Source of the DNA: SAR86 cluster bacterium
GTDB taxonomy: Bacteria > Pseudomonadota > Gammaproteobacteria > Magnimaribacterales > Magnimaribacteraceae
Length of the DNA stretch: 64,000 nt
Reading direction: 5' to 3'
NCBI GenBank assembly: GCA_029268615.1
Contig: JAQWNM010000005.1
Coordinates: forward strand, 1-64,000
Positions 6,901 to 31,894 of this stretch are shown in pieces; within the stretch, counting starts at the first letter, position 1; each line of letters starts with the position of its first letter. The position numbers and the translations under genes were made by a program. A model generated the notes under the pieces. The model saw only the letters and a list, made by a program, of their open reading frames with translations. It made no database searches and was not told the origin of the DNA.

Positions 6901-6902
6901 AA

Positions 6903-14316: not shown

Positions 14317-15075
14317 TTAAATTGCTATAACTCCGCCATCAACTGAAATAGAATCACCTGTTGTATATGAAGAATCGTCAGAAGCTAGAAATAAAACTGC
14401 TGAAACTACTTCTTCTGGCTCGCCAATCCTATTCATAGGATGTTGAACTGCAAACTCTTTTAATTGGACTTCTGGATCTTCTGCAGCATCTAGATACCTT
14501 TGTACCATGGGTGTATTAATAGCTCCCGGTTGGACTGCATTGCACCTAATATTATAGCCTAACTCTGCACAATGCAGGGCCACTGTCCTTGTAATAGAAA
14601 GAACTCCAGCCTTACTGTAGTTATATGCTAAGACAAAAGATTTTGGTCTTGTTGCTAAAGATGAAGAAAAATTAATAATAGAACCGCCTGCTTCCTTCAT
14701 TGCCTTGACTGCAAACTGACAACCTAAAAAGACTGAGGTACCATTGATTGCATGAGTTCTATTCCAGTGCTCTAAAGTTTCATCTTCTATTGTTGCGGGC
14801 TCGCTAATACCAGCAGCGTTTACAACTGTCGTTATCGTTTTAAACCTTTCCCCTAAATGTCCTTCTAAAGCATCCCAATCTTCCTGTTTGGTAACATCTA
14901 CTTTAAAAAATTCACATTTTTCTCCTATTTCAGCTGCGATCTTCTCTCCTTCGCTTTCATTAATATCTATAGTTACAGCCGACCCTCCTTCTTCAATAAA
15001 TTTCTTTGCTGTTAAAGCACCCATTCCAGAAGCTCCACCTGAAATTACTGCAAACTTTCCTTCAAACCTAGCCAT
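14317..15075 (-). CDS. SDR-family NAD(P)-dependent dehydrogenase (A)
   Basis: Classical short-chain dehydrogenase, 252 residues from the chosen start. It has the nucleotide-binding GGASGMG loop near the N-terminus, NAAG, and the catalytic YNYSK. D at the end of strand 2 (TIDIN) suggests NAD rather than NADP. I use the ATG at 15075 because AAAGGAGAT precedes it; an upstream ATG would overlap the neighbouring gene and add unrelated residues. Last of three SDR genes behind a Rieske oxygenase, so probably oxidising a diol or alcohol made by the oxygenases. The substrate is unknown. Confidence 0.88.
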   Translation of the reverse strand: MARFEGKFAVISGGASGMGALTAKKFIEEGGSAVTIDINESEGEKIAAEIGEKCEFFKVDVTKQEDWDALEGHLGERFKTITTVVNAAGISEPATIEDETLEHWNRTHAINGTSVFLGCQFAVKAMKEAGGSIINFSSSLATRPKSFVLAYNYSKAGVLSITRTVALHCAELGYNIRCNAVQPGAINTPMVQRYLDAAEDPEVQLKEFAVQHPMNRIGEPEEVVSAVLFLASDDSSYTTGDSISVDGGVIAI

Positions 15076-15097
15076 TTTATCTCCTTTATTTTTTATT

Positions 15098-15871
15098 TTA
15101 AGCCCCTCTCGCTCCAGCACCGCGACCACCATCAACAATTAATTCAGTGCCTGTGACAAATGAAGATTCATCAGAAACTAAATATAATATAGCTTGAGCT
15201 ATATCAGTAGGTTGTCCCATTCTTTTCATTGGATTTAAATTCATTAAGTTTGTTTTTAATTCTTCATCTTCTCCAAAAGCTTCAGCCAACATTTCAGTCC
15301 AAATAACTCCAGGTACCATTGTATTAATTCTGATATTTCTGCCGTTTGCAGCTGCCTCAAGAGCTACAGATCTGGTCATGCCGCATATAGCTCCTTTACT
15401 AGCACAATAAGCAGCTCCATCTTCGAGACCTACTACACCCATTAAAGAAGAAACATTGACTATAGCCCCTCCCCCTGCTTTATCCAATTCAGGCATTACA
15501 TGTTTCATGCCTAAAAATACACTATTTACATTTGTTTTAATAAGAGATTTAAACTCATCAACTGAAGTTTCTTCAATTGACTTAATTAAAAAAGCTCCTG
15601 CATTATTTATTAATATATCGATATGATCAAATGATTTCTTAGTAAATTCAATGCACTCAACCCAACTTTCTTGAGAGCAAATATCATGTTCAAAAAACAA
15701 TCCTTCTCCGCCTGCTTCTCTTATCAAATCAATTGTCTGGACTCCTCTTTCTTGATTCCTTCCAGTCACTATTATGCTTGCACCTTGTTCTGCTAAAACT
15801 TGACAGCATGACCTACCAATTCCAGAAGTGCCCCCCGTTACTATGGCTACTTTATTATTTAGATTACTCAT
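15098..15871 (-). CDS. SDR-family NAD(P)-dependent dehydrogenase (B)
   Basis: Short-chain dehydrogenase of 257 residues with GGTSGIG at the cofactor loop, NNAGAF and catalytic YCASK. VTGRNQERG after strand 2 carries Arg where NADP-preferring enzymes often do, so NADP is possible. It overlaps the preceding SDR gene by 8 bases and is separated by 22 bases from the next one. The three SDR genes form a tandem set and probably arose by duplication followed by divergence. Confidence 0.88.
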   Translation of the reverse strand: MSNLNNKVAIVTGGTSGIGRSCCQVLAEQGASIIVTGRNQERGVQTIDLIREAGGEGLFFEHDICSQESWVECIEFTKKSFDHIDILINNAGAFLIKSIEETSVDEFKSLIKTNVNSVFLGMKHVMPELDKAGGGAIVNVSSLMGVVGLEDGAAYCASKGAICGMTRSVALEAAANGRNIRINTMVPGVIWTEMLAEAFGEDEELKTNLMNLNPMKRMGQPTDIAQAILYLVSDESSFVTGTELIVDGGRGAGARGA

Positions 15872-16655
15872 TATAACTTGTTCCAGGTAAAGCTACCCTC
15901 ATGCCTCCGTCTATTGTTAATTCTGCTCCAGTCATAAAACTGGACGCATCTGATAATAAAAAACATACCCCATTTGCAATATCTTCTCCTTCACCTAACC
16001 TACCAGTAGGTATTGTTTTTCTAATTCCTTCCCAAATTTCTTCTCTTCCTTCTCGCTCTGTCTGCATTGGAGTCATAATCACCCCTGGATGCATACTATT
16101 TACTCTAATAAATTCTCCCTTAGCACCTATTTCTAAAGCAGCTGCTTTAGTTAGCAGTCTATTTCCACCTTTACTAGCGCTATAAGCACCACAATACAAA
16201 GTGCCTGTTAAACCAGATAAAGAAGACATATTTACAATACTTCCCGTTGAATTATTTTTTCTTCTCATAAGATCAATTACCAACTTCATACCTATAAAAT
16301 TTCCTGTAAGATTAATATCTTGAGTTTGATTAAATTCTTCTAAAGTTAGGTCTTCTATAGGTTTTAGGTTAACTATCCCAGCATTGTTAACTAAACCATG
16401 TAAAGTGCCTTCTGTTAGCTCTATTTCAGCAATCACTTCATTCCACTCTTCTTCAGAAGCTACGTCTAATTTGCATCCACGTATGGATTCTGAATATTTA
16501 TCCGTCCAATTAGAGATAGACTTTGATAATAGGTTTTCATCAACATCGGTTGCCACGACTTTGGCCCCTTCCTGCAACAACTTAGTAACACATGCTTCGC
16601 CGATACCTCTTGCAGCTCCAGTAACTAAGATTATCTTGCCATCCAATTTTGGCAT
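15864..16655 (-). CDS. SDR-family NAD(P)-dependent dehydrogenase (C)
   Basis: Short-chain dehydrogenase with GAARGIG, NNAGIV and catalytic YSASK; D after strand 2 (ATDVD) suggests NAD. The chosen start is the ATG at 16655, since GGAGG lies 5 bases upstream of it and is itself part of the longer open frame beginning at 16667. That gives 263 residues. It follows the Rieske gene by 14 bases in the same operon. Likely role: dehydrogenating a hydroxylated intermediate. Confidence 0.88.
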   Translation of the reverse strand: MPKLDGKIILVTGAARGIGEACVTKLLQEGAKVVATDVDENLLSKSISNWTDKYSESIRGCKLDVASEEEWNEVIAEIELTEGTLHGLVNNAGIVNLKPIEDLTLEEFNQTQDINLTGNFIGMKLVIDLMRRKNNSTGSIVNMSSLSGLTGTLYCGAYSASKGGNRLLTKAAALEIGAKGEFIRVNSMHPGVIMTPMQTEREGREEIWEGIRKTIPTGRLGEGEDIANGVCFLLSDASSFMTGAELTIDGGMRVALPGTSYNE

Positions 16656-16669
16656 CTTTTCCTCCATAT

Positions 16670-17860
16670 TTATTTAACTCTTTTTAATTCTACATCCTCT
16701 GGATCAAGGCCTACAGCATCTCGAAAAGATTGGTGCATATAAATTAAAGATAATTCATTTTTACCAAAAATAGAATGCGGGTGCAAACCAGAATTAAAAC
16801 CTTTCATTACATTCTCGCTCACCCAATAATCATCCTTTTCAACTACACTATATATAAAATCATATTGCTCTTGAGCTTCTCTTTTTTCTTTTTCGGTTGT
16901 CATTTGAGACCTTTTATACAGAGAGAACCTTGTCAGATGATTATTCACTTCTTTTCCTGGGTACAATTCAAAATAATTTATATAATCAGGACTAACTAAT
17001 ATGATTACATTTGGAAATAAAAAATAAACAAACTGAAAATGTTGCAGCGAATCCCATTCTGATTCTGGTACATTATTTAATTCTAAGATTGTTTTATTAG
17101 CAAATCCAACTCTATGATTATAAATATATTTATCATAGGTCATTAGATTGCTGAAAGTGGAGTCACCTATCGTTTCTGCATGAAGGGGCCCAAAATGATA
17201 TCCTTCACAAAAAGTATCTAATGCTAATTTCCAGTTAGTAGGCATGGTAAAGATTTGTCTATCAACTAAATGCATATTACCCAAATCCCAAGTACCCAAT
17301 TGAGGACCTAGCTCATCACCTAAAATATCATCAATACTCATTGAAGGTCCAGGAGTTGGTCTAACATAGATCATACCGTACTTCTCTTCGGCTACTAATT
17401 CAGTCAGTCCATGAGAAGATTTATCTATTTCTCCAAAAGTTTCCTCTCCATAAATAGAGGTTAAATTGCCATCATGATCATATTTCCAAGCGTGATAAGG
17501 ACAGACAAATCCTCTCGGTTTTTTTCCACATGAAACGTCTTCCAACCTTGCCCCTCTATGACGACAGACATTTAAGAAAGCTCTAATTATACCTTGTGAA
17601 TTTCTGGTTATTAGAATTGGAATACCTGTATCTTCATTAGTTATAAAATCTCCATTTCCTGGAAGATCATTAGAAAAAGCCATCAGCAAAGGCCTTTCTT
17701 TAAATAACATTCTTTTCTCTCTTTCAAAAAGCTCTGTATTTGTGTAAGTATCAATGTCTACATAAAATGGAGCCTCTTCATTAGTTGCCATTGTTGTAGT
17801 TTTTCCTTCTACAAGACTCAGTAACTTTTTAGCTACTATATCTAAATCTTCCTTTTTCAT
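16670..17860 (-). CDS. Rieske non-heme iron oxygenase large subunit (RO-1)
   Basis: Oxygenase component that hydroxylates or demethylates an organic substrate using electrons from a reductase. The Rieske [2Fe-2S] ligands are C99/H101 (CRHRGA) and C120/H123 (CPYHAW). The mononuclear iron site is H222 and H227 in EGYHFGPLH, with Glu219 at the position that bridges to the neighbouring Rieske centre (Asp in naphthalene dioxygenase). The shortest of the five (396 aa). First gene of the minus-strand operon RO-SDR-SDR-SDR; AGGAT precedes the ATG. The operator at 17931-17958 lies in the divergent promoter region upstream. Confidence 0.9.
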   Translation of the reverse strand: MKKEDLDIVAKKLLSLVEGKTTTMATNEEAPFYVDIDTYTNTELFEREKRMLFKERPLLMAFSNDLPGNGDFITNEDTGIPILITRNSQGIIRAFLNVCRHRGARLEDVSCGKKPRGFVCPYHAWKYDHDGNLTSIYGEETFGEIDKSSHGLTELVAEEKYGMIYVRPTPGPSMSIDDILGDELGPQLGTWDLGNMHLVDRQIFTMPTNWKLALDTFCEGYHFGPLHAETIGDSTFSNLMTYDKYIYNHRVGFANKTILELNNVPESEWDSLQHFQFVYFLFPNVIILVSPDYINYFELYPGKEVNNHLTRFSLYKRSQMTTEKEKREAQEQYDFIYSVVEKDDYWVSENVMKGFNSGLHPHSIFGKNELSLIYMHQSFRDAVGLDPEDVELKRVK

Positions 17861-17958: not shown

Positions 17959-18016
17959 ATATATTATAGTCAATCTAGAATAGTTAAAATACCATTTGGA
18001 AGAAGAGGAAAAAATA

Positions 18017-18550
18017 ATGAAAATTATACAACATAACATAATTCAATATGCCTATATGTGCAAAGATATGGATTCCTTAAATAACCATTGCTTGAAATGG
18101 GCAGAAGCCCATGGAGCAGGCCCATTCTGGATCATGGAGAACCTTAAACCTGAGGGAGTTACATATAAAGGAGAACCTTGTGAATTAGATATGACTTTTG
18201 CTTTTGCTCAATCAGGAGATGTCCAAATAGAATTTATGGTTCAACACAATCAGGGGCCATCTACATTTAGAGATATGTTCTCAGAGGATGAAGAAGGATT
18301 CCATCATTGGGCTATATTTGTTCCTAATTATGAAGAAGAGTACAACAGACTTACTGGTTTAGGTTACGAAGAAACAACAGCTTTTTCCACTTCAGCTAGA
18401 GTAGCTTTTTTAGATGCAGAGAAAGATCTTGGTGGGCATATAGAACTTTATGAAGAAAATCCTGGTACTCAAGCAGTATTTGATTTATTCGTAGAAAGTC
18501 ATAAGAATTGGGACGGTAAAGATCCTATTAGACCTTTACCTATAGGATAA
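18017..18550 (+). CDS. VOC/glyoxalase-fold protein
   Basis: Protein of 177 residues with the vicinal-oxygen-chelate fold pattern of paired beta-alpha-beta-beta-beta modules. Candidate metal ligands are H10 or nearby residues, H97 in FHHWAIFV and E near the C-terminus in GGHIELYE. I start at the ATG at 18017 because AGAGGAA precedes it; the longer frame begins at a TTG. Members of this superfamily include isomerases, epimerases and extradiol dioxygenases, so the reaction is open. First gene of a 12-13 gene operon. Confidence 0.75.
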   Translation: MKIIQHNIIQYAYMCKDMDSLNNHCLKWAEAHGAGPFWIMENLKPEGVTYKGEPCELDMTFAFAQSGDVQIEFMVQHNQGPSTFRDMFSEDEEGFHHWAIFVPNYEEEYNRLTGLGYEETTAFSTSARVAFLDAEKDLGGHIELYEENPGTQAVFDLFVESHKNWDGKDPIRPLPIG

Positions 18551-18575: not shown

Positions 18576-19835
18576 ATGGCTACTAATTACATAGATAAAT
18601 CAAAACCGCTTAGTGAGTTAAAACTCTTTGATAAAGAAATTCTAGAATGTCCTTATCATCACAATCAAGAGCTGAGAGACAAAGCTCCTGTTTATCAAGA
18701 TGGGGATACTGGTATTTTTCTAGTTTCTAAGTATGAGTTAGTAAAAGAAGCCGCTAGGAAGAAGGATGTCTTCTCTAATGAATTTGGGCTTAATTCAGAA
18801 ACAAGCTCTCATCCTCCTGCTGTCATGGAGGCCATGAAAAGACAAGCAAACATGGGAAAAGGAACTTTACTAACGATAGATGATCCAGAGCATAAAAAAT
18901 ACAGATCTTTGGTTAAAGACTTCTTTATACCAGAAAAAATTGCTGCCTACGAAGGATGGATTTTAGATTTTGCAGATAAACAAATAGATAAATTTGCTGA
19001 TGAAGGTAAATGCGAATTTATTGAATCTTTTGCTAGACCTCTTCCATTATCAGTAATACTTCATGTTTTAGGAATTCCATTGGAAAGATTTGATGATTGC
19101 TTCAAATGGACTGTTGATTCTGTCACGGCTCTATCGGGAGTTGCTAATGAGGAAGAACTAATAGCAGCCCATCATGGAGTTGCTGATCAACATGCTTTTT
19201 TTGCTGAAGAAATAAAAGCTAGAAGGAAAAGTCCTAAAGAAGATCTATTAACAGTAATAGCTTCAGCGAGATATGAAGATGAAAGAGAACTAAGCATAGA
19301 AGAATGCATCTCTTTCTGCACTCAATTTCTTGTTGCCGGTAATGAAACAACTACGGCTACGCTAGCAGAGGGAATGAGGCAGATTTGTCAGCATAAAGAT
19401 CAACAAGATATTCTTAAAAATGATAGATCATTGATAACTAATTTCGTTGACGAATCTTTAAGATTAGCAACTCCTACTTCAAATATGTGGCGAATTGCTA
19501 AAGAGGATACTGAGCTTGGAGGAGTGTCCATCCCAGCTGGAAGTCAAATGCTTTTAAAGTACTTCTCTTCAAATCATGATGAAGAAGTATTTGATGACCC
19601 TTTGAAGTTTGATGTTACTAGAGAAAATGCAAGATCACATATAGCCTTTGGATTTGGTATTCATGTCTGCATTGGTCAATTACTATCAAAACAAGAAATG
19701 AAAAATGGATGGGAAATGTTGTTTAATAAGTTAGAAAATTTTAGTTTAGCTACTGATTCCGAAGAGTTAAAATATATGCCAAATATCTTATTAAGAGGAC
19801 TTGAAGAAATTCCAATTACTTTTGATAGAATTTAA
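18576..19835 (+). CDS. Cytochrome P450 monooxygenase (bacterial class I type)
   Basis: Soluble P450 of 419 residues. The I-helix oxygen-activation motif AGNETT is at 254-259, ExxR at E293-R296 (DESLRL), and the heme-thiolate cysteine is C365 in FGFGIHVCIG. No membrane anchor. AGAGGAT precedes the ATG. It needs a ferredoxin and reductase, and none is encoded in the island. The next gene is an epoxide hydrolase of the limonene-epoxide type, so one plausible role is to make an epoxide from a double bond. Hydroxylation is equally possible. Confidence 0.92.
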   Translation: MATNYIDKSKPLSELKLFDKEILECPYHHNQELRDKAPVYQDGDTGIFLVSKYELVKEAARKKDVFSNEFGLNSETSSHPPAVMEAMKRQANMGKGTLLTIDDPEHKKYRSLVKDFFIPEKIAAYEGWILDFADKQIDKFADEGKCEFIESFARPLPLSVILHVLGIPLERFDDCFKWTVDSVTALSGVANEEELIAAHHGVADQHAFFAEEIKARRKSPKEDLLTVIASARYEDERELSIEECISFCTQFLVAGNETTTATLAEGMRQICQHKDQQDILKNDRSLITNFVDESLRLATPTSNMWRIAKEDTELGGVSIPAGSQMLLKYFSSNHDEEVFDDPLKFDVTRENARSHIAFGFGIHVCIGQLLSKQEMKNGWEMLFNKLENFSLATDSEELKYMPNILLRGLEEIPITFDRI

Positions 19836-19843
19836 GAAAATAT

Positions 19844-20218
19844 ATGTCTAATTCCAAAGTTATAACCGATTTTATAGCAGCCTGGAATCAAATGGACTTT
19901 GATTCGATATCTGAAAGTTTGGATGAAAATGTTTTATATCATAATATTCCCATGGAACCGCTCCAAGGTAAAGAAGCAGCTCTTGGTTTTCTTAGGAGTC
20001 TTTCAGAGTGTGAATCTATATTTTGGGAACTTTTATTCATAGCTGAGAATCGAGGTGTAGTGCTCACTGAAAGAGTTGATAATTTTAACTATAAAGATGG
20101 TCGTAAAATTAGTCTTCCAGTTATGGGAACTTTTGAAATTAAAGATGGTAAAATAATTAAGTGGAGAGATTATTTTGATCTTTCTACTTTTCAAAAACAA
20201 ATCATGGGAGAGTCTTAA
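19844..20218 (+). CDS. Limonene-1,2-epoxide hydrolase family protein
   Basis: Small NTF2-fold protein of 124 residues. The catalytic Asp-Arg-Asp triad of Rhodococcus limonene epoxide hydrolase (R99, D101, D132) is matched by R77 and D79 in TERVDNF and D109 in WRDYFDL. The water-positioning Tyr and Asn (Y53, N55) are matched by Y32 and N34 in YHNIP. The spacing agrees almost exactly. The family hydrolyses cyclic epoxides to diols, including terpene and sterol epoxides. It starts 8 bases after the P450 gene, which supports an epoxidation-hydrolysis pair. Confidence 0.85.
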   Translation: MSNSKVITDFIAAWNQMDFDSISESLDENVLYHNIPMEPLQGKEAALGFLRSLSECESIFWELLFIAENRGVVLTERVDNFNYKDGRKISLPVMGTFEIKDGKIIKWRDYFDLSTFQKQIMGES

Positions 20219-20222
20219 AATA

Positions 20223-21422
20223 ATGGATCTAAAATTTGATCAAGAAGAATTAGCTTTTCAAAAAGAAGTTAAGGATTTTCTTAAAACCGAACTACCTGCT
20301 CACCTCGTGTCAGCAGCTAAGAAATCTAGTGCAGTTTTCCCTGAAAAAGAAGTTGCTCTTGAATGGCAATCTATCCTTGCCAAGAAAGGTTGGCTGGTTC
20401 CTTCCTGGCCAGAAGAATATGGTGGAACAAATTGGAATCCAGCTCAAAAGTATATTTTTGCTAGAGAACTCGCTGAAGCTGAAGCACCCTCCATTATTCC
20501 CATGGGTCTTGCTATGTTGGGGCCTGTTTTACTAGGTTATGGAACTAAGGAACAAAAAGACTATTATCTTCCAAGAATGATAAGCGGAGAGGATTATTGG
20601 TGTCAGGGATACAGTGAACCAGGTTCAGGTTCTGATTTAGCAAGTTTACAATGTAAAGCGGAAGTAAAAGATGATAAATATATTATTAACGGTACAAAAA
20701 TTTGGACTACTCATGCGCACTACGCAAATAAAATATTTTGTCTTGTCAGAACTGATAACCAAAATAAACCTCAAGCTGGTATAACATTTCTCATGGTAGA
20801 TATGGACCAACCTGGTATAAAAGTTGAACCAATTATAACTCTTGCTAAAGATCATGATGTTAATCAAGTTGTGTTTAATAATGCTGAAGCTAAAATAACC
20901 GACAGAATAGGTGAGGAAGGAGAAGGTTGGACAGTAGCTAAGTACCTTCTAGAGTTTGAAAGAGGTGGAGGAGTGGTTTCTGCTAGAGCCTTTAAGGCCA
21001 TCAATTTTGCTAAGAAATTAGCTGAGAATATAAAGGGAGATGAAGGGATTAATCTAATCAGTTCTTCGGAATATCTACAAAAATTTGCTGATCTGGAAAT
21101 TCGTGCTCAGGCAGTTCAGTACACAGAGCTAAGAGGTCTTTCGGCAATGAAAGATGGGGGCAGACCTGGTCCTGAATCTTCTATGATGAAAAATCTGGGA
21201 GCAGATCTTCAACAGGATATCTCTGAATTAGCCTTGGAAATTATCGGTTACTATGGAAATGCTTTTCAAGACACAAGCTATGGCTCTAACACAATAGCTA
21301 TAGGACATGAGTCATATTTAACCATAGCTGGATCTTATCAAAATCTAAGAGCTGCTAGCGTTTATGGGGGTTCTAGAGAAGTTCAAAAAAATATTATTGC
21401 GAAGGCAGTTTTAGGCTTATAG
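20223..21422 (+). CDS. Acyl-CoA dehydrogenase family protein
   Basis: FAD-dependent acyl-CoA dehydrogenase of 399 residues with the central motif YSEPGSGSDLASL and the C-terminal GGSREVQKNIIAKAVLGL. The residue before the GGS is Tyr-Gly, not the Tyr-Glu of medium-chain enzymes that carries the catalytic base there, so the base must be elsewhere. I start at the ATG at 20223; the longer frame overlaps the epoxide hydrolase gene. It implies that a CoA thioester is desaturated in the pathway, although no acyl-CoA ligase is visible in the island. Confidence 0.9.
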   Translation: MDLKFDQEELAFQKEVKDFLKTELPAHLVSAAKKSSAVFPEKEVALEWQSILAKKGWLVPSWPEEYGGTNWNPAQKYIFARELAEAEAPSIIPMGLAMLGPVLLGYGTKEQKDYYLPRMISGEDYWCQGYSEPGSGSDLASLQCKAEVKDDKYIINGTKIWTTHAHYANKIFCLVRTDNQNKPQAGITFLMVDMDQPGIKVEPIITLAKDHDVNQVVFNNAEAKITDRIGEEGEGWTVAKYLLEFERGGGVVSARAFKAINFAKKLAENIKGDEGINLISSSEYLQKFADLEIRAQAVQYTELRGLSAMKDGGRPGPESSMMKNLGADLQQDISELALEIIGYYGNAFQDTSYGSNTIAIGHESYLTIAGSYQNLRAASVYGGSREVQKNIIAKAVLGL

Positions 21423-21428
21423 TTTAAA

Positions 21429-21680
21429 ATGAAAGAAACTATTATTTACACTTCCTATACTTGCCCATACTGTTATAAAGCAAAATCTTTGCTTAATAAA
21501 TTAGGAGTTAAATATAAAGAAATTCCAGTAGATCTAAGACCTAAACTCAGAGAGAAAATGGCAGAAAAGGCTGGCAAAACATCAGTTCCGCAAATTTGGA
21601 TTGATAATAAACATGTCGGCGGCTTCGATGACTTGTATGCTCTAGAGCAAAATGGTGAGCTTGAAAAATTAATATTATAA
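21429..21680 (+). CDS. Glutaredoxin (GrxC-type)
   Basis: Glutathione-dependent thiol oxidoreductase of 83 residues. The dithiol active site is CPYC at C12-C15 (TSYTCPYCYKAK), followed by the cis-proline motif TSVPQIWI and GGFDDLYAL for glutathione binding. It lies between the acyl-CoA dehydrogenase and the E1 alpha gene in the same operon (6 and 14 base gaps). A glutaredoxin within a catabolic operon is unusual; it may keep an Fe-S oxygenase or the lipoate system reduced. Confidence 0.92.
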   Translation: MKETIIYTSYTCPYCYKAKSLLNKLGVKYKEIPVDLRPKLREKMAEKAGKTSVPQIWIDNKHVGGFDDLYALEQNGELEKLIL

Positions 21681-21694
21681 AAAGGGAGAAAATC

Positions 21695-22663
21695 ATGACC
21701 TATTCTAAGAACTTGCTTCTTGAAGCATATAAAACCATGAAAACTATAAGGCTTTTTGAGGAAAGATGCGAAAAAGAATTTACTCAAGGAAATATACCTG
21801 GATTTGTTCATCTTTATGCAGGTCAAGAAGCAGTTGCTGTAGGTGCTTGCTCTCATCTTTCAATAGAAGATAAGATTGCAAGCACACATAGAGGTCATGG
21901 CCATTGCATAGCAAAAGGTTGTGATGTAAGGGGCATGATGCATGAAATCATGGGTAAAGCTGATGGCCTCTGCAAAGGTAAAGGTGGCTCTATGCATATT
22001 GCAGACTTAAGTAAAGGCATGCTTGGAGCAAATGCAATTGTTGGAGGCGGTCCGCCAACAGTAGTTGGAGCCGCTCTATCTGCTAAAACTCTTGGCACTA
22101 AGAACGTTGCCGTTGCCTTTTCTGGAGATGGAGCATCAAACCAAGGTACTACTTTTGAAGCAATGAATATGGCGGTTGTATTGAAAGTTCCTGCAATATT
22201 TCTTTTTGAAAATAATGGCTACGGAGAACATACCGGAGCAGAGTACGCCGTTGGGTCAAATGATATAGCTGGAAGAGCTGCAGCATTTGGAATGCCTGCT
22301 TACACTTGTGATGGTACAGATTTCTTTGATGTCTATGAAACTATGGATAAAGCTGTTAAAGAAACCCGAAATGACAATGGACCATGTGCTATAGAGGCCA
22401 AAGCTGTTAGATATGGAGGCCACTTCATTGGAGATCCAGAAAATTATAGAGGCGAAGGCGAGCATGACGATTTAAGAGAAAATAAAGATTGTTTAAAAAT
22501 ATTTAGAGCTAAAGCAACATCGGATCATGATATAAATGATGCTGAATTAGATGCTATAGATACAGAAGTTGAAGAGTTAATAGAAAGTTGCGCTGAATCA
22601 GGGAAAGTCGCTCCTCTACCAGATGTATCTGAATTAACTACTGATGTATATATCTCTTACTAA
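21695..22663 (+). CDS. 2-oxoacid/acetoin dehydrogenase E1 alpha subunit
   Basis: Thiamine-dependent E1 alpha subunit of a lipoate-using dehydrogenase complex. The TPP motif spans GDG (144-146) to NN (173-174) in FENNGYGE. STHRGHGH and KGKGGSMHIAD are typical of the acetoin/pyruvate group. 322 residues. GGGAG precedes the ATG. With the next two genes it forms E1a-E1b-E2, the same order as in acetoin dehydrogenase operons. The substrate may be acetoin or a 2-oxoacid produced by the island's pathway. Confidence 0.9.
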   Translation: MTYSKNLLLEAYKTMKTIRLFEERCEKEFTQGNIPGFVHLYAGQEAVAVGACSHLSIEDKIASTHRGHGHCIAKGCDVRGMMHEIMGKADGLCKGKGGSMHIADLSKGMLGANAIVGGGPPTVVGAALSAKTLGTKNVAVAFSGDGASNQGTTFEAMNMAVVLKVPAIFLFENNGYGEHTGAEYAVGSNDIAGRAAAFGMPAYTCDGTDFFDVYETMDKAVKETRNDNGPCAIEAKAVRYGGHFIGDPENYRGEGEHDDLRENKDCLKIFRAKATSDHDINDAELDAIDTEVEELIESCAESGKVAPLPDVSELTTDVYISY

Positions 22664-22689
22664 TCTTATTTAAATAAACAGGAAAAAAA

Positions 22690-23703
22690 ATGCCAGAAAA
22701 AAGTTATACGGAAGCAATACGTGAAGCACTAGATATAGAAATGGAACGTGATCCAACTGTTATTGTAATAGGAGAAGATGTAGCTGGAGGGGCAGGAACC
22801 CAAGGAGATGACGTTGAAGCTATTGGAGGAATTTGGGGAACAACTGTTGGCCTAGGAAGAAAATATGGTAGAAGTAGAGTTATTGACACTCCTATAACTG
22901 AATCTGCCATCATAGGTACAGCTGCAGGAGCAGCAATGACAGGTCTCAGACCTGTTGCAGAACTTATGTTTGTTGATTTCTTGGGGGTATGCTTTGATCA
23001 GATTTATAACCAAGCAGCAAAATTTAAATATATGTTTGGAGGAAAAGCAACCACTCCTTTAGTTGTTAGGACAGCTGTCGGTGCAGGATTAAGTGCTGCT
23101 GCGCAGCACTCCCAAACCATGTTTTCAACATTTACATCTGTACCAGGCCTGAAAGTGGTAATGCCTTCAAATCCATATGATGCAAAAGGTTTATTAATCC
23201 AGGCTATTAGAGATGATGATCCTGTTATTTTTTGTGAGCATAAACTACTTTATGGCATGACGGGTGAAGTTCCAGACGGTGAATATACTATACCTTTTGC
23301 AGAAGCTAATTGGCTTAAAGATGGTGAAGATTTAACAATTATTGCTTTTTCTGCAATGGTTCCAAAAGCGTTAGAAGCTGCTGAGAAACTTGAAGCTGAA
23401 GGAATAAATTGTACTGTAATAGATCCTAGAACTACTTCTCCTCTTGATGAAGAATCTATCATTGCATCTGCTGAAGAAACAGGAAGGGTAGTTATTGTTG
23501 ATGAAAGCACACCAAGATGCAGTATAGCATCTGATATCTCTTCAATCATTGCAGAAAAAGCTTTTAAAGCCCTAAAAGCTCCTATTAAAAAAGTGACTGC
23601 TTCTCATACACCTGTTCCATTTTCTCCAGCTCTTGAGCAAGCTTTTCTTCCTCAAGTGGACGATATATTAGTAGCTTGTAGAGAAGTTCTAGGTTCTAAT
23701 TAA
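22690..23703 (+). CDS. 2-oxoacid/acetoin dehydrogenase E1 beta subunit
   Basis: E1 beta partner of the preceding gene, 337 residues. The N-terminal transketolase pyrimidine-binding region has VIGEDVAGGAG and TPITESAIIGTAAGAAMTG. The C-terminal transketolase domain carries VIDPRTTSPLDEESI and VDESTPRCSIA. The GTQGDDVEAIGGIWGTTVGL insertion is the form usual in acetoin-type rather than classical pyruvate E1 beta. An AGGA ribosome-binding site lies 8 bases before the ATG. Confidence 0.9.
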   Translation: MPEKSYTEAIREALDIEMERDPTVIVIGEDVAGGAGTQGDDVEAIGGIWGTTVGLGRKYGRSRVIDTPITESAIIGTAAGAAMTGLRPVAELMFVDFLGVCFDQIYNQAAKFKYMFGGKATTPLVVRTAVGAGLSAAAQHSQTMFSTFTSVPGLKVVMPSNPYDAKGLLIQAIRDDDPVIFCEHKLLYGMTGEVPDGEYTIPFAEANWLKDGEDLTIIAFSAMVPKALEAAEKLEAEGINCTVIDPRTTSPLDEESIIASAEETGRVVIVDESTPRCSIASDISSIIAEKAFKALKAPIKKVTASHTPVPFSPALEQAFLPQVDDILVACREVLGSN

Positions 23704-23722
23704 ATAATCAGCTAAGGAAGAA

Positions 23723-24922
23723 ATGTCTCAAAATATTCAACCGTTAACTATGCCTCAATGGGGTCTCACAATGACAGAAGGAACTCTTGTCAAATGGAAT
23801 GCCAAAGAAGGTGATGAAGTTATGGAGAAAACTGAGATTGCAGAAATAGAAACAGAAAAAATAGTTAATGTACTTGAGTCCCCTACATCAGGAATTATAA
23901 AGAAACTTATAGCTCCCGAAGGAGAAACTCTAGTTGTAGGCTCACTTATAGGCATAATTGCAAATGATGAGGTTTCAGCCGATGAAATAGATGAATTTAT
24001 TAGTTCTTATAAGCCAATTGAGTTATCCACTCCTTCCGCTTCAGGGTCAAGCGTTGCTAAGTCCATTAATATCCCCACCCAAACTTCTGCTCCTGGTGAA
24101 GGGCAAGTAAATCCGGCAGTTAAAAGACTGGCAAAAAAACTAGGTGTTGATCTTACCTCAGTAGCCGGAACAGGTAGGAATGGAAAAGTCACAAAAGAAG
24201 ATGTTGAAGCAGCAAGCAGAGGCGAAAGCCTAGCTCCCAAGGAAGAATCATCAAATAATCCTTTTGAATCCTCAACTCTAAGTAGCATGAGAAAAACCAT
24301 TTCTACAAGATTAACTGAGTCTAAGCAAACAATTCCACATTTTTATCTTACTAGCGAGTTTAATATAGATGCTCTATTAGAAATGAAGAATGCTATGTCT
24401 AATGACAAAAATAAATTATCTCTAAATGATTTAATTATTTACTCAGTGGCTAAAGCATTAATATTGGAGCCTAGAGCAAATGTACAATTTATAGATGATG
24501 AATTAAGGACTTTTAAGCATGCGGATATTTCTTTAGCTGTGGCTACAGATTCAGGTTTAATAGCTCCTATTTTAAGAAAAGCAGATACTAAATCACCACA
24601 GGAAATAGCTATAGAAGTCAAAGACCTAGCTGAAAGGGCTCAAATAGGAAAATTGGAAAGAGATGAAATAGTTGGTGGAACATTCAGTGTCTCAAATCTT
24701 GGATCTTATGGAATATCTAATTTTAAAGCTATTATCAATCCTCCTCAAGGAGCTATCTTGGCAATTGGGGCGGGCGTAGAAAAAATTATATCTCAAAATA
24801 AAAAACCAGTCTCAGCAAATATAATGAGTGTCTCTCTATCATGCGATCATAGGATAATTGATGGTGCAGTTGGAGCTGAATTCTTAAAAATATTGAAGGA
24901 AAAGATAGAAAATCCTAAGTAG
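23723..24922 (+). CDS. 2-oxoacid/acetoin dehydrogenase E2 (dihydrolipoamide acyltransferase)
   Basis: E2 core of the complex, 399 residues. Lipoyl domain 1-80 with the lipoylated lysine at K46 (EIETEKIVN). A peripheral subunit-binding domain at about 132-165 (NPAVKRLAKKLGVDLTSVAG, then KEDVEAA). The catalytic domain has CDHRIIDGAVGAEF, with the HRxxDG active site near the C-terminus. The E3-binding domain is intact but no lipoamide dehydrogenase gene is nearby, so the complex probably borrows the housekeeping E3. AGGAAG precedes the ATG. Confidence 0.92.
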   Translation: MSQNIQPLTMPQWGLTMTEGTLVKWNAKEGDEVMEKTEIAEIETEKIVNVLESPTSGIIKKLIAPEGETLVVGSLIGIIANDEVSADEIDEFISSYKPIELSTPSASGSSVAKSINIPTQTSAPGEGQVNPAVKRLAKKLGVDLTSVAGTGRNGKVTKEDVEAASRGESLAPKEESSNNPFESSTLSSMRKTISTRLTESKQTIPHFYLTSEFNIDALLEMKNAMSNDKNKLSLNDLIIYSVAKALILEPRANVQFIDDELRTFKHADISLAVATDSGLIAPILRKADTKSPQEIAIEVKDLAERAQIGKLERDEIVGGTFSVSNLGSYGISNFKAIINPPQGAILAIGAGVEKIISQNKKPVSANIMSVSLSCDHRIIDGAVGAEFLKILKEKIENPK

Positions 24923-24940: not shown

Positions 24941-26242
24941 ATGGGTATTTCATTTTTAGCTGAACAGATAGAAGAAGAGATACTTAAAAGATCAAAGTTT
25001 GAACTTAACAGGAAAGATTCACCCCCTAAAGGCTTCATAGACCTCCCTCCTCTACCAGCAGAAAGATATATAGATCCTGCCTTTTTTGAATTAGAAAAAA
25101 AAGCTTTATGGGATAAATCTTGGCTTTATGCAGCTCATATTGATCAAATTCAAAACCCTGGAGATTACCTAGTATGGAAAGATGGAGGCTCACCGATTAT
25201 TATAGTAAAAGGACAAGATTCAATAATTAGAGCTTTTTACAATACTTGCCAACACAGAGGTTCAGCTGTAGTTAGAGAAGCAACAGGAAATACTAAAAGG
25301 TTTGTATGTCAATATCATAGTTGGGCTTATGAGTTGAATGGAGAATTAAGTTTTGTGCCTGATGAAAGGGATTGGAGTAATTTAGATAAAAAATGTAACA
25401 GCCTTATCGAAATAAAATGTGAACTTTGGGGTAACTTAATCTTTATAAATCAAAACCCTGATTCCAAATCCCTCTTAGACTCTTTAGGGGTTGTAAACAA
25501 AATTATGGAACAATTTCAACTATCTACAATTAGATATGTTGGTAAAAGAAGCTGGCAAGTAAATTGTAATTGGAAAGTTTGCCAAGATGCTTTTATGGAA
25601 GTCTATCATCTTAAAACTGTTCATCCTTATTCTGTATCTGAATTACTTGATCATAGAGGGGCAGTTATGGCCCTTTTAAAAAACGGACATTCAGTTATGA
25701 CCACTCCTAATAGACAAAACCTTTCTTCTGATGGATTAACTGTTTTATCAAATGAAGAGTCGGAAGATGAGACTGATTTCAAAGAAGCTTCTGTTAGAAA
25801 ATTACCTCCACTTGAAATAGACACCGTCAGAGATTTTTCAAGGCAGAATAACTTATCTTTGAATGTTTTTCCTAATTTAGTGACTCCATTGAATCATACA
25901 GGTTTTCCTTTCTTACAATTTTGGCCGGAAACGTTAAATACCTGTCGAATGGATGTTCATTGGTTCTCTCCAGATTGGGGAGATGGCAATAATCCAAATC
26001 TAGAAGAATGGGAAACAAGAATGGATGTTTTTGATGAAATACTTTCTGAAGACACCTTAAACCTACCTTGGATACAAAATTCCTTAGAATCTCTAGGATT
26101 CAAGTCAATTCCACTAAACTATCAAGAAAGAAGAATTTATTACACACATCAAGAAATTGACAAGCTCATTGGTAATAATTCTATTCCAGAAAGTTGCAAG
26201 GTAGAACCTTTGCTGGATAAATTTATTGAAGAATGGGAATAA
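24941..26242 (+). CDS. Rieske non-heme iron oxygenase large subunit (RO-2)
   Basis: Oxygenase large subunit, 433 residues. Rieske ligands C103/H105 (CQHRGS) and C123/H126 (CQYHSW). Mononuclear iron ligands H223 and H228 in MEVYHLKTVH, with Glu220 at the bridging position. The extended N-terminus (1-45) has no recognisable domain. GGAGAT lies before the ATG. It sits between the E2 and aldehyde dehydrogenase genes in the long plus-strand operon. Its C-terminal half differs from that of RO-3, RO-4 and RO-5, so it probably has its own substrate. Confidence 0.9.
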   Translation: MGISFLAEQIEEEILKRSKFELNRKDSPPKGFIDLPPLPAERYIDPAFFELEKKALWDKSWLYAAHIDQIQNPGDYLVWKDGGSPIIIVKGQDSIIRAFYNTCQHRGSAVVREATGNTKRFVCQYHSWAYELNGELSFVPDERDWSNLDKKCNSLIEIKCELWGNLIFINQNPDSKSLLDSLGVVNKIMEQFQLSTIRYVGKRSWQVNCNWKVCQDAFMEVYHLKTVHPYSVSELLDHRGAVMALLKNGHSVMTTPNRQNLSSDGLTVLSNEESEDETDFKEASVRKLPPLEIDTVRDFSRQNNLSLNVFPNLVTPLNHTGFPFLQFWPETLNTCRMDVHWFSPDWGDGNNPNLEEWETRMDVFDEILSEDTLNLPWIQNSLESLGFKSIPLNYQERRIYYTHQEIDKLIGNNSIPESCKVEPLLDKFIEEWE

Positions 26243-26248
26243 ACCTTA

Positions 26249-27664
26249 ATGTCTAAAGATATTAAAAAATATAAACTCCTGTTGGATGGAGAACTTATAA
26301 CAACAGAGCAATCTATTGAAGTTATAAATCCTGCTAATGAAGAAATAATTGCTCTTTGTTCCAAAGCTACAAATAAAGAACTAGACCTTGCTATTGAATC
26401 AGCTAAAAAAAGTCAAAAACTCTGGGCTAAAATAGGGATTGAAGAAAGGCAACAAGTTCTTCATGAAATAACCAATGTTATTAAAGATAATAGAGATCAG
26501 ATAGCCAGAATTCTTACCTTAGAACAAGGCAAAACTTTTATAGCTGCTAAAGGTGAAGTTCAATTTGCAGAAGCGTTTTGTAATTATTTTGCTAATCAAT
26601 CTCTAGATAATCAATTACTAAAAGATGACGATAGTTCTATTATAGAAATTCACAGACTACCTTTAGGAGTTGTTGCTGCAATAGCTCCTTGGAATTTTCC
26701 TTTTTTAATAGCAGTATATAAAACGGCTCCAGCAATCCTAATGGGCAACTCCATCATACTGAAGCCGGCACCTACCACACCGATTTCTACATGCTTCTTT
26801 GGGGAACTGCTGCAGCCAATTATTCCAAGAGGGTTAATAAATATAATTACAGATGAGAATGAACTAGGTCCAACTATTACTCGGCATCCTGATATAGCAA
26901 AAATATCTTTTACTGGTTCAACATTTACAGGAAAAAAGGTAGCAGAAAATAGCGGCTCTACTTTAACAAGACTTACACTTGAACTTGGCGGAAATGATCC
27001 TGCAATTGTTATGGCAGATGCTCAACCCTCAAAAATAGCCCAAGATATTTTTAATTCTTCTATGAATAATACTGGACAAATTTGTGCAGCGATAAAAAGG
27101 CTTTATGTCCATCAAGACATCTATGAAGAAATGTGTAATGAACTTAAAAAGATAGCAGACGGCACCAAAGTAGGAGATGGCTTTGAGCAAGGAAGTGACC
27201 TTGGCCCTTTGCAAAATAAGAATCAATATGAAAAAGTAAAAAGCTATATAGAAGAAGCTAAGCAGAAAGGAAATATAATTTCTGGAGGAGAGCCTCTTGA
27301 GGGACCTGGTTACTTTATTCCCATAACCCTTGTTAAAGATATTCAGGATGGAGCTAAGTTAGTTGATGAAGAGCAGTTTGGACCTATTCTTCCAATCATA
27401 AAATATGATGATATTGATGAAGTAATAGATTTATCAAATAGTTCAAAATATGGGCTAGGAGCATCGGTATGGAGTGAAAATATAAAGAAAGCTAGAGAAG
27501 TAGCAATCAAACTGGAAGCTGGCTCTGTATGGGTAAATCAACATGCTGCAATTGGCCCTGATATTCCTTTATCTGGCGCCAAAGAGTCAGGTTTAGGAGT
27601 TGAATGGGGAGAAGAAGGTTTGAGGGAATTTACTCAACTTAAAATTTTAAATATAAAGAAATAA
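26249..27664 (+). CDS. NAD(P)-dependent aldehyde dehydrogenase
   Basis: Aldehyde dehydrogenase superfamily member, 471 residues. The general base is E245 (LELGGN) and the nucleophile C279 (NTGQICAA). APWNFPF at 146-152 and FTGSTFTGK bind the cofactor. The fold and length fit the succinate-semialdehyde/benzaldehyde type rather than CoA-acylating enzymes. It starts 6 bases after RO-2 and probably oxidises an aldehyde released by oxygenase or dehydrogenase action. Confidence 0.92.
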   Translation: MSKDIKKYKLLLDGELITTEQSIEVINPANEEIIALCSKATNKELDLAIESAKKSQKLWAKIGIEERQQVLHEITNVIKDNRDQIARILTLEQGKTFIAAKGEVQFAEAFCNYFANQSLDNQLLKDDDSSIIEIHRLPLGVVAAIAPWNFPFLIAVYKTAPAILMGNSIILKPAPTTPISTCFFGELLQPIIPRGLINIITDENELGPTITRHPDIAKISFTGSTFTGKKVAENSGSTLTRLTLELGGNDPAIVMADAQPSKIAQDIFNSSMNNTGQICAAIKRLYVHQDIYEEMCNELKKIADGTKVGDGFEQGSDLGPLQNKNQYEKVKSYIEEAKQKGNIISGGEPLEGPGYFIPITLVKDIQDGAKLVDEEQFGPILPIIKYDDIDEVIDLSNSSKYGLGASVWSENIKKAREVAIKLEAGSVWVNQHAAIGPDIPLSGAKESGLGVEWGEEGLREFTQLKILNIKK

Positions 27665-27679: not shown

Positions 27680-28060
27680 ATGAAAGCAATAGATACAATA
27701 AATAAAGCCTTAGAAATGTTAAGCGATGGTGACTTTGAAAATTATGAAAGTTTGCTCGCTGAAGATATGTATTTTAAGATGTGCGGAAGTACTTCTCTAT
27801 CAGGGGAAGCATTCAGTAAAGATGAATTCCTTGCAACAGTAGGAAACGTAATGGCTCTTCTAGCTGGTCCTATAAAATTAAATGTTAAAAAAGTAATTGA
27901 CGGCGGCGATTGGGTTATCTCGATAGCTGATGGAGAAGCCACAACACTCTCAGGCAAACCTTACAATAATGAATATTGTCATATTTGGAAAGTAAAAGAC
28001 GGATTAATAATAGAATTAAGAGAATTCCTTGATACAGCCTTATTAAGAGATATTTGCTAA
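27680..28060 (+). CDS. SnoaL/NTF2-fold protein
   Basis: Protein of 126 residues in the NTF2-like superfamily, with the C-terminal pattern YCHIWKVKDGLIIELREFLDT common in SnoaL-like proteins. It has no Asp-Arg-Asp triad of the epoxide hydrolase type. Members act as isomerases, cyclases, hydrolases or non-enzymatic binding proteins, so the function is open. Located between the aldehyde dehydrogenase and a ThuA-like gene in the same operon. Confidence 0.75.
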   Translation: MKAIDTINKALEMLSDGDFENYESLLAEDMYFKMCGSTSLSGEAFSKDEFLATVGNVMALLAGPIKLNVKKVIDGGDWVISIADGEATTLSGKPYNNEYCHIWKVKDGLIIELREFLDTALLRDIC

Positions 28061-28071
28061 CTCATATTCGG

Positions 28072-28887
28072 ATGAAAAAAATTAATGCGTTGTTGATTAC
28101 GAAAGGTCATCCTTTTGAGAGAGGTCCATTCTTTGATATGTATGACTCACTTGAGATTGAATATACTCATATAGAACATCCTGCAGCGGAACATATTCTT
28201 AATCCAAATAATGCGGTTAATTACAATTTACTTTGTTTTTACGACATGCCAGGAATGAATTTTGATTTGCCAGAAGATAATATTGAAATAGACCCAAATG
28301 AGGATTTTAAAGAAGGGTTTAATCAACTCTTAGAAGAAGGAAAGCCAATGTTGTTTATACATCACTCAATAGCTGGATGGCCTGCATGGGATCAATACGC
28401 TGAAATCATAGGCGGTAAATTTTTATACAAAGAAAAAAAGCTAAGAGGCAAACTTACCATTGATTCTGGTTACCGTCATGACATAACGCACGTTGCTAAA
28501 GTTGTAAATCCACATCCAATTACAGAAGGAATTAAAGAAATTAAGATTACTGATGAAGTCTATCTTTATGAAATCTTTGAAGATTCGATCTACCCTCTTT
28601 TAACAAGTGATTATTTATTTGAAAAAGAAAACTTCTATTCAGCAAACAACGCTATTAATGGTCAGATGTATAATAATGATAATTGGGATCACCCTCCTGG
28701 ACTTGGCCATGTAGCATGGGTTAAATCATATAAAAATAGTCCAATTGTCTACCTGCAGATGGGAGATGGTCCAAGTACTTACAAAAATAAAACTTATAGA
28801 AAACTCTTACGTCAAAGCATTGATTGGTTGACTAGTAAAGAGGCTCAGGAATGGGCTCAAAATGAAAAGGAGAAAAAAAATGTCTAA
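28072..28887 (+). CDS. ThuA-like domain protein (1)
   Basis: Protein of 271 residues with the ThuA-like (class I glutamine amidotransferase-related) fold. Motifs include FIHHSIAGWPAWDQYAEIIGG and, near the end, VYLQMGDGPSTY. The family was first named from trehalose utilisation genes, but its biochemical role is not settled. I start at the ATG at 28072, not the upstream TTG that overlaps the previous gene. It overlaps the next SDR gene by 8 bases. A second ThuA-like gene is at 31139. Confidence 0.78.
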   Translation: MKKINALLITKGHPFERGPFFDMYDSLEIEYTHIEHPAAEHILNPNNAVNYNLLCFYDMPGMNFDLPEDNIEIDPNEDFKEGFNQLLEEGKPMLFIHHSIAGWPAWDQYAEIIGGKFLYKEKKLRGKLTIDSGYRHDITHVAKVVNPHPITEGIKEIKITDEVYLYEIFEDSIYPLLTSDYLFEKENFYSANNAINGQMYNNDNWDHPPGLGHVAWVKSYKNSPIVYLQMGDGPSTYKNKTYRKLLRQSIDWLTSKEAQEWAQNEKEKKNV

Positions 28888-29632
28888 TTTATTAGAGGGA
28901 AGAAAAGCTGTAATTACTGGAGCTGCAAGCGGTATTGGAGCTGCAAGTGCTCTATTGTTTGCGGAAAATGGTGCAGAGGTTTTAGCTTTTGATATGAATC
29001 CAGAAATAGAGAATATATACAAAGAAAATAATAAAATTACTGGCTTGGTGCAAGATATTTCAAACCAAGATGCAGCTAGAAATATACTAAACCATGTGGA
29101 GACGTATCTAGGTGGCTTAGATATTCTAATGAATAATGCAGGGGTTATTTCAAACTTACCTATTAGCGAAGTATCTTCGGAGGAATGGTCTAGAGTATTT
29201 AAAGTTAATGTAGATGCAAATATAGAGATCACTAAATCTTTAATGACTTTAATAAAAAATAGCTCTCAAGGCAGGGTAATCAATATTGGTTCCATAATGA
29301 GTAGCTTAGGAGATGCAAATCTACCTGCATATACAGCATCTAAACATGCCGTTGCTGGCTTAACAAAATCTCTTGCTTTTGAATTAGGTAATTCACAAGC
29401 AACCGCTAACTATATTCAACCGGGTTCAATAGTAACTGGAATGACTAAAGATGCCATCGCGGCGAGTGAAGAATTTACTAATTTTTGGATTGAAAGAGCT
29501 GCTCTAAAAAGGCTAGGGCAACCAGAAGATATAGCGAAAGGAGCACTCTTCTTAGCTTCAGATTTAAGCAGCTTTGTTTCAGGGCATGGATTAGTAATAG
29601 ATGGAGGGGCATTAGTCGCAGCATCTTGGTAA
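28880..29632 (+). CDS. SDR-family NAD(P)-dependent dehydrogenase (D)
   Basis: Short-chain dehydrogenase of 250 residues with GAASGIG, NNAGVI and catalytic YTASK; D after strand 2 (FDMN) suggests NAD. The start at 28880 is supported by AAAAGGAGA 7-8 bases upstream; the longer frame from 28862 begins inside the ribosome-binding region. Last gene of the long plus-strand operon. Its TAA stop overlaps the first bases of operator copy B. Confidence 0.9.
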   Translation: MSNLLEGRKAVITGAASGIGAASALLFAENGAEVLAFDMNPEIENIYKENNKITGLVQDISNQDAARNILNHVETYLGGLDILMNNAGVISNLPISEVSSEEWSRVFKVNVDANIEITKSLMTLIKNSSQGRVINIGSIMSSLGDANLPAYTASKHAVAGLTKSLAFELGNSQATANYIQPGSIVTGMTKDAIAASEEFTNFWIERAALKRLGQPEDIAKGALFLASDLSSFVSGHGLVIDGGALVAASW

Positions 29633-29731: not shown

Positions 29732-31129
29732 ATGGCAAAGCATTGGGAATATTATTCTGATCAAGATAAACAAATTGATCCTGATTATGGGCATGACATT
29801 ATTTCAAAAGATAGATATGTCTCACAAGAATTTATGGACCTTGAAAGAGAAAATATCTGGAAAAAAATCTGGCTTATGGGTAGTCCTCTTCTAGATCTGA
29901 AGGAACCAGGAGATTATATAACTACAGAAATATTAGATGAATCTATTCTAATAATGAAAGGTGAAGACCTTAAAATAAGAGCCTTTTATAACGTCTGCCA
30001 ACACCGAGGGAATCAGTTAGTCCATTCTCCGTTAGGTAATGCGAAGCAACATAAGTGTACTTTTCATGCTTGGGCATATAACTCAGCTGGTACTCTAATA
30101 AATGTACCTGATGAAGAAACCTTTTCTCAAGGTGCTCCGTGTGAAAAATTAAGCTTAAAAGAGATCCCTTGTGATACGTGGGGAGGCTTTGCCTGGTTTA
30201 GTTTAAATAAAGATGTTGAACCTTTGATGGACTTCCTTGGCATAATCCCTGAACATCTTGATCCTTATCATTTTGAAAACATGCAATTAGTAAATGATGT
30301 AACGGTTGAAATGCCTTACAACTGGAAAACATCTGTTGATGCATTTAATGAAACTTATCATGTAGTTGAAACTCATCCTGAATTGACATCTTGGCTAGAA
30401 GATTTAGACATACAAATAGATGTTTATGATAAACATAATCGTTATATTGTCCCTTTCGGAACACCTAGCTCCCACCTTGAAGATAAAAAAACTATTTCTG
30501 ATGATTTACGTCTATATATGGAACAAGCTGGGTTAGACTCAAGTAAATTTAAAGGTGATGCAACTGAAGTTAGAAGAGCAATACAACTTCAAAGAAGAGA
30601 GCATGGAGCTGACATGGGTTATGATTTTTCAGAACTTAATGACGATCAACTTAGCGATGATTTCCATTATTTAATTTTTCCTAATATCACTCTCAATATT
30701 TATCCAGAGTCGATGATGTTATTCAGGCAAAGGCCTCATCCTACTGACCCTAATAAATCTTTATTTGATCTTCAAAATTATCTCATGCAACCAGAAGCAA
30801 CAATACCTGGGGTAACGGATAATCAAGATATTTCTGGTTCTAAAAGTAAGAATACAGAAGAAAAAAAAGAAGTAGTAGCTCGAAAAAGAAGAATGGGTGG
30901 AACTTTTAAAGAGATTCCCACTGAAGTGGAGAGACCTATTCATAGGCAATTTAAGCACGGAGAAGAATCCCTCGGAGTTGTATTAGATCAAGACGCTTAC
31001 AATCTACCTCATGTTCAGAAAGGAATGAACTCCGATGGCTATGATGGTTTATGGCTAGGAACGCAAGAATTAAGAATCCGACACTTCCATGAAACAATTG
31101 ATGATTATGTTTTTAAAAATAAACGATAG
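29732..31129 (+). CDS. Rieske non-heme iron oxygenase large subunit (RO-3)
   Basis: Oxygenase large subunit, 465 residues. Rieske ligands C89/H91 (CQHRGN) and C109/H112 (CTFHAW). Iron site H210 and H215 in NETYHVVETH with Glu207 at the bridging position. It shares an extended C-terminal half and the ending DQDAYNLPHVQKG...RIRHFHETID with RO-4 and RO-5, so these three form a paralogous group. GGAGGAAATATT precedes the ATG. First gene of the operon RO-3, ThuA-2, TetR. Confidence 0.9.
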   Translation: MAKHWEYYSDQDKQIDPDYGHDIISKDRYVSQEFMDLERENIWKKIWLMGSPLLDLKEPGDYITTEILDESILIMKGEDLKIRAFYNVCQHRGNQLVHSPLGNAKQHKCTFHAWAYNSAGTLINVPDEETFSQGAPCEKLSLKEIPCDTWGGFAWFSLNKDVEPLMDFLGIIPEHLDPYHFENMQLVNDVTVEMPYNWKTSVDAFNETYHVVETHPELTSWLEDLDIQIDVYDKHNRYIVPFGTPSSHLEDKKTISDDLRLYMEQAGLDSSKFKGDATEVRRAIQLQRREHGADMGYDFSELNDDQLSDDFHYLIFPNITLNIYPESMMLFRQRPHPTDPNKSLFDLQNYLMQPEATIPGVTDNQDISGSKSKNTEEKKEVVARKRRMGGTFKEIPTEVERPIHRQFKHGEESLGVVLDQDAYNLPHVQKGMNSDGYDGLWLGTQELRIRHFHETIDDYVFKNKR

Positions 31130-31138
31130 GAATAGGTA

Positions 31139-31894
31139 ATGGAAGCACAAAAAAAAATTAACGTATATCTAGTCGCTGGTGGAAAATATCATGATATTGA
31201 TTTTGCTAGGCTCGAAATCCTAAAATTACTTGCCGAAGATGAACGAATAAGAACAAAAGTAGGACAAGATTATAAAGATATTGATGCTATAACATCATCA
31301 GATTTTCTTATTACCTATACATGTGATGTTATGCCAAGCTTAGACGAACAAGAAGCTTTAAGGGACTTCGTATCTAACGGCGGAAAATGGTATGCACTTC
31401 ATGGCACAAACTCAATCTTAAGGTTTTTAGATAATGGTCAAGTAAGTGCACCTAGATGGGCTCCACACTTAATGGAAACTCTTGGATCACAATTTATCTC
31501 TCATCCACCCATAGCTCCTTACATGGTAGAAGTGGCTGACCAAGAAAATGCTCTGGTGAAAGATGTAAAACCTTTTGAAGTAACAGATGAACTATATCTA
31601 ATGGATATTCATGGTGATCTAGAAATCCTTTTGCATACAGAGGAATGGGGTGGAACAACTGAAGGATTTGTTGATAGTGAATGGGAGAATAGGAGATGGC
31701 CTGTATTTTATATACATAAACTTGGTAAGGGCTCAGTTCTATACTTAACTCTTGGTCATTGCAGAGGACACTATGATATGGATCCTATTACTGACTTCTA
31801 TCCTGAAATAGAAAAAGGATCATGGGATGTACCTGTCTTTTATGATTTGTTAAGAAGAGGAATTTTATGGTGTAAGGATGAACTAAAGGGATGA
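31139..31894 (+). CDS. ThuA-like domain protein (2)
   Basis: ThuA-like protein of 251 residues: FLITYTCDVMPSLDEQEALRDFV leads into GGKWYALHGTN, and VFYIHKLGKGSVLYLTLGHCRGH occurs near the end, both usual for the family. It is only distantly similar to the first ThuA-like protein (28072). It lies 9 bases after RO-3 and overlaps the TetR gene by 4 bases (ATGA), so the oxygenase, this protein and the regulator are translated together. Confidence 0.78.
   Translation: MEAQKKINVYLVAGGKYHDIDFARLEILKLLAEDERIRTKVGQDYKDIDAITSSDFLITYTCDVMPSLDEQEALRDFVSNGGKWYALHGTNSILRFLDNGQVSAPRWAPHLMETLGSQFISHPPIAPYMVEVADQENALVKDVKPFEVTDELYLMDIHGDLEILLHTEEWGGTTEGFVDSEWENRRWPVFYIHKLGKGSVLYLTLGHCRGHYDMDPITDFYPEIEKGSWDVPVFYDLLRRGILWCKDELKG

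Follow-up and report, generated by a model that had tools for sequence, protein, structure and literature searches.

A cytochrome P450 gene is followed directly by a gene resembling limonene-1,2-epoxide hydrolase (LEH) in a 64,000-nucleotide stretch of a SAR86 cluster bacterium contig (hereafter the window), which raises the question of whether the two enzymes act in succession and on what kind of substrate. An earlier note on this DNA, made from the letters of the sequence, had placed the pair at 18,576-20,218, and we found both open reading frames (ORFs) intact at these coordinates, on the plus strand. To our knowledge, the breakdown of algal sterols and terpenoids by marine bacteria is largely without gene-level assignment. 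A compact and recurrent P450-LEH module with conserved partners would offer a specific, testable entry point to it.

The second gene of the pair encodes a genuine member of the LEH family, as the earlier note had proposed. In a Pfam profile search, PF07858 (LEH) covered residues 2-121 of the 124-residue protein, scoring 78.9 bits where the cut-off is 24 (E 5.3e-22). The SnoaL_2 (50.5 bits) and SnoaL (40.9 bits) profiles also matched above their cut-offs, with the LEH profile scoring higher. The PDB matches are LEHs, the best sequence match being 5aif (2.8e-28), with the Rhodococcus LEH structures at about 1e-17. The residues R77, D79, D109, Y32 and N34 are exactly as the note had listed them and each pairs with its LEH counterpart in an alignment to 4r9k; both the Asp-Arg-Asp catalytic set and the water-holding Tyr and Asn are present. 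All five are kept in 37 out of 37 LEH homologues, where only the invariance of R77 and D79 is unbiased, because Y32, N34 and D109 sit in the peptides used for the homologue search (YHNIPMEP and IKWRDYFD) and their invariance is partly built in. The note had also stated that its assignment would fall if the residues did not superpose on the LEH active site. The predicted structure (pLDDT 94.5) superposes on solved LEHs and the residues align with the LEH active site in sequence, so that fold and residue alignment did not refute the assignment. Its top Foldseek matches were 5aif, 5aii and 5aih (rmsd 1.0-1.1 Å, TM 0.91-0.93), while the rmsd to wild-type ReLEH (1nww/1nu3) was 1.9 Å.

The first gene encodes a P450 with intact motifs. 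PF00067 matched it with 109.9 bits against a cut-off of 22.8, and we located the heme motif FGFGIHVCIG at residues 358-367 with Cys365, the ExxR motif as ESLR at 293-296, and the acid-Thr pair of the I helix in AGNETT at 254-259. The nearest solved enzymes were the sterol C26 monooxygenases CYP142 and CYP125, whether the search used the single sequence, a profile of LEH-linked P450s or the predicted fold (pLDDT 87.5). The identity to the CYP142/CYP125 structures is 29-33% and the lead over other P450s is modest, so that this affinity is a lean and not an assignment. By customary P450 nomenclature, one family requires about 40% identity, which places the window P450 outside CYP142/CYP125 as a nearest relative. 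A targeted search found no Fer2 redox partner adjoining the P450; the genome gave four Fer2 matches, of which one is at 10-246 of the window.

Table 1 Features of the P450-LEH region in the window.
Feature	Coordinates	Strand	Remark
Divergent arm: three short-chain dehydrogenases (SDRs) and Rieske oxygenase RieskeA	14317..17860	-	Syntenic in L003
Glyoxalase_4/VOC-fold protein	17996..18550	+	First gene of run
Cytochrome P450	18576..19835	+	419 aa
LEH family enzyme	19844..20218	+	Residues Y32 N34 R77 D79 D109
Acyl-CoA dehydrogenase (ACAD), PimC-large-like	20223..21422	+	Nearest solved structure 4x28
Glutaredoxin	21429..21680	+	Not found in L003 cluster
Pyruvate-dehydrogenase-type E1 alpha, E1 beta, E2	21695..24922	+	
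Rieske ring-hydroxylating oxygenase alpha subunit	24941..26242	+	
Aldehyde dehydrogenase	26249..27664	+	
SnoaL_2-fold protein	27680..28060	+	
ThuA-like protein 1	28054..28887	+	Homologue directly upstream of LEH in Erythrobacteraceae
Short-chain dehydrogenase SDR4	28862..29632	+	
Rieske oxygenase RieskeC	29732..31129	+	Alphaproteobacterial loci L007 and L010 have homologues close to LEH
ThuA-like protein 2	31139..31894	+	Recurs near LEH/P450 in other lineages

The pair lies within 13 co-directional genes, from the VOC-fold gene to SDR4, with gaps of -26 to +26 bp. The gap is 25 bp before the P450, 8 bp between the P450 and LEH, and 4 bp between LEH and the ACAD gene. A terminator scan of the region gave fewer matches than in shuffled sequence and thus no sign of an internal stop in the run. 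This spacing suggested that the 13 genes form one operon. The region is also rich in Rieske oxygenases, with five alpha subunits within about 24 kb (16670-40433). Cleavage of a ketol by the E1/E2 genes was considered and dropped, as these genes score as pyruvate dehydrogenase. They may be housekeeping genes, because the E2 is the sole one of its kind found in the genome and no aceE was found there (here and below, genome-wide statements rest on targeted searches). A separate 2-oxoacid:acceptor oxidoreductase set is located at 3074-7958 on the plus strand.

The earlier note had proposed a search for the pair in other genomes, and this search uncovered it in several alpha- and gammaproteobacterial lineages. 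LEH itself is rare: of the 369 genomes searched in the class, 11 score above the cut-off. Among 61 genomes of the order, which are small and low in GC as would fit marine SAR86, a P450-linked LEH was found only in the window genome and in L003/G002, which shows full synteny (identities of 72% for the P450 and 60% for LEH). To look more widely, 80 loci were picked by LEH similarity alone and then searched with the window P450. A P450 matching it at 200 bits or more was found in 28 of the 80: L003, 23 Erythrobacteraceae-type loci, the Porticoccaceae locus L076, and L005, L007 and L010. The distance between LEH and P450 was about 0.25 kb or less in the Erythrobacteraceae-type loci, 0.5 kb in L076 and 2-8 kb in L005, L007 and L010. 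In Bradyrhizobium (L029) a P450 lies 38 bp from LEH but is weakly similar to the window P450, below 200 bits. The use of the window P450 as the query favours similar P450s near LEH, and the Erythrobacteraceae loci should count once in any tally of the pairing.

We then searched 20 genomes with LEH-linked P450 loci using the window P450. The linked P450 was the best match in all eight Erythrobacteraceae-type genomes (five matches each), as well as in L005 (of 11 matches) and L007 (of 18). In L076, two linked P450s were the top two of four matches, and in L010 the linked P450 was second of 27, with the top match on the same contig. On a tree of LEHs, the P450-adjacent label requires 4 changes compared with 23 in shuffles, a difference to which near-copies contribute and in a tree where many forks are unresolved. 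The pairing is unlikely to be due to chance, since LEH is rare and yet a P450 is found beside or near it in several separate lineages, and this P450 is usually the one that, within its genome, most resembles the window P450. This supports the P450-LEH partnership as a conserved arrangement. The titles and opening abstracts of the literature that we surveyed gave no description of this P450-LEH cluster.

LEH also occurs in loci where no P450 partner was seen. About 20 sphingomonad LEH loci had no P450 within the flanks of up to 10 kb that were fetched; in these loci LEH lies near SDR genes and, where the flank permits, ACAD, OB and thiolase genes. No P450 was seen in the fetched flanks of the next-closest relatives of the window LEH (L004, L006, L008, L009, L011 and L012), and the stretches fetched around the second LEH of the window genome (on contig C10) and the LEHs of G012 and G004 contained no match to the window P450.

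A counterpart is the Erythrobacteraceae cluster (L021 and relatives), with the gene order ThuA-LEH-P450-ACAD-OB-thiolase-SDR-ThuA-ACAD. In common with the window cluster it has LEH, SDR1, both ThuA-like proteins, a PimC-like ACAD and a P450 that resembles the window P450. It differs in that LEH precedes the P450, whereas the P450 comes first in the window, and in the presence of OB and thiolase genes; the search for a Rieske gene beside LEH in L021 gave no match. We found no paper describing this cluster. The enzymes are of known kinds, in a recurrent arrangement that is so far uncharacterised.

Among characterised systems, the window pair would work most like the LimB/LimA breakdown of limonene (DCL14-type), with a P450 replacing LimB. 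There, a monooxygenase epoxidises limonene and LEH converts the epoxide to a diol, followed by a dehydrogenase and beta-oxidation-like steps (PMC7794910). The LEH family and its active site are common to both systems. The oxygenases differ, as LimB is a flavin enzyme and the window has a P450 in its place. If the pair works in this way, the monooxygenase-LEH logic known from limonene breakdown would be extended to epoxide hydrolysis driven by a P450. The one luciferase-like gene annotated in the window, at 42082-43047 (plus strand), was considered as LimB and rejected, as it matches the F420-dependent family TIGR03621 (277.6 against a cut-off of 213.15); such a gene is unexpected in a small gammaproteobacterial genome. 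No Baeyer-Villiger enzyme was found among the annotated genes of the window cluster, and four FMO-like matches occur elsewhere in the genome. Of the solved LEHs, the closest are the hot-spring enzymes Tomsk-LEH and CH55-LEH (5aif, 5aih and 5aii; 41-42% identity), which are metagenomic and have been assayed on limonene and other epoxides; we know of no P450 context for either. The LEH-like epoxide hydrolase Rv2740 of M. tuberculosis (2bng) has the same fold and is farther from the window LEH than the hot-spring enzymes (28% identity, rmsd 2.4 Å). We likewise know of no LEH partner for CYP142 or CYP125.

The earlier note had taken LEH as the best clue to the substrate, for which it proposed an unsaturated ring compound, with fragments of terpenoids or sterols as examples. 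Drawn from LEH, this claim is too strong. Characterised LEHs open the oxides of limonene, styrene and cyclohexene as well as 1,2-epoxyhexane (PMC7429986), and LEH alone does not give the substrate class because the family is promiscuous. The lean towards a sterol- or terpenoid-like substrate comes instead from other genes. The P450 is nearest to CYP142/CYP125, and the ACAD, PimC-large-like though under the cut-off of that model, is nearest to 4x28 (ChsE4-ChsE5). Four KstD-like flavoproteins are encoded outside the window on contigs C9, C10 and C13 of the genome (G000; loci L116-L119), one of them matching the 3-oxosteroid 1-dehydrogenase 7p18 with 482 bits. A KstD-like gene also lies near the Erythrobacter LEH cluster. 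A steroid pathway was not accepted as proven, since the KstD-like proteins of the genome score under the NCBIfam equivalog cut-offs. A survey from 2016 placed SAR86 genomes among the predicted steroid degraders (PMC4810484).

Taken with the gene layout, the most likely reading is that the P450 would epoxidise a C=C bond in a lipophilic compound, probably an isoprenoid of sterol- or terpenoid-like type, and that LEH would open the epoxide with water in one step to give a vicinal diol. In such a step D79 and D109 would serve as acid and base, R77 would bridge them, and Y32 and N34 would hold the water. The diol could be oxidised further by the SDRs and aldehyde dehydrogenase of the cluster, and the ACAD may pass the products to a beta-oxidation-like degradation. 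The note had proposed the same sequence of epoxidation and hydrolysis; the conserved linkage supports it, while the formation of the epoxide by the P450 is something we infer. On balance, we consider it probable that the two enzymes form a two-step unit feeding a sterol- or terpenoid-like substrate into the degradation encoded by the cluster. Counting against such a unit are the hydroxylase nature of CYP142/CYP125 and their modest lead, the LEH loci with no P450 in the fetched flank, the weak similarity of the L029 P450, the low scores of the KstD-like proteins and the bias of the P450 query.

A rival reading has a P450 that hydroxylates, for example at a terminal methyl, with LEH acting at another step of the same pathway, where a different oxygenase such as a Rieske enzyme would supply the epoxide. 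CYP142 and CYP125 hydroxylate a terminal side-chain carbon (PMC6153880), the nearest solved P450s are sterol C26 hydroxylases, five Rieske oxygenases are at hand in the region, and LEH clusters with no P450 seen nearby occur. However, the P450 is the immediate neighbour of LEH in the window, in L003 and in Erythrobacteraceae, and the linked P450s belong to one similar group across lineages, so that we regard separate roles as rather unlikely. That LEH is protective, clearing epoxides formed accidentally by the cluster oxygenases with no committed step of its own, appears less likely still. The region is oxygenase-rich and epoxide hydrolysis has been described as neutralising reactivity (PMC7794910), but LEH is tightly packed between the P450 and ACAD genes and keeps its place next to genes of the pathway, which speaks for a committed step. 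Finally, the LEH fold may have been kept with a changed reaction (hydration, isomerisation or a lyase reaction, perhaps on a CoA-bound intermediate), as in other relatives of the SnoaL/NTF2 fold. The SnoaL-type profile matches and the sphingomonad clusters, which join LEH to CoA enzymes with no nearby P450, are in keeping with such a change; the complete LEH catalytic set and the higher score of the LEH profile make it highly improbable.

It is possible, though it falls short of probable, that the pair is a new epoxidation-hydrolysis module, built on one P450 group and accompanied by ThuA-like proteins, an SDR and a PimC/ChsE-like ACAD across alpha- and gammaproteobacteria, and that it starts the breakdown of unsaturated sterols or terpenoids in the sea. 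We found no role for the two recurrent ThuA-like proteins, homologues of which recur near LEH/P450 clusters in both alpha- and gammaproteobacteria.
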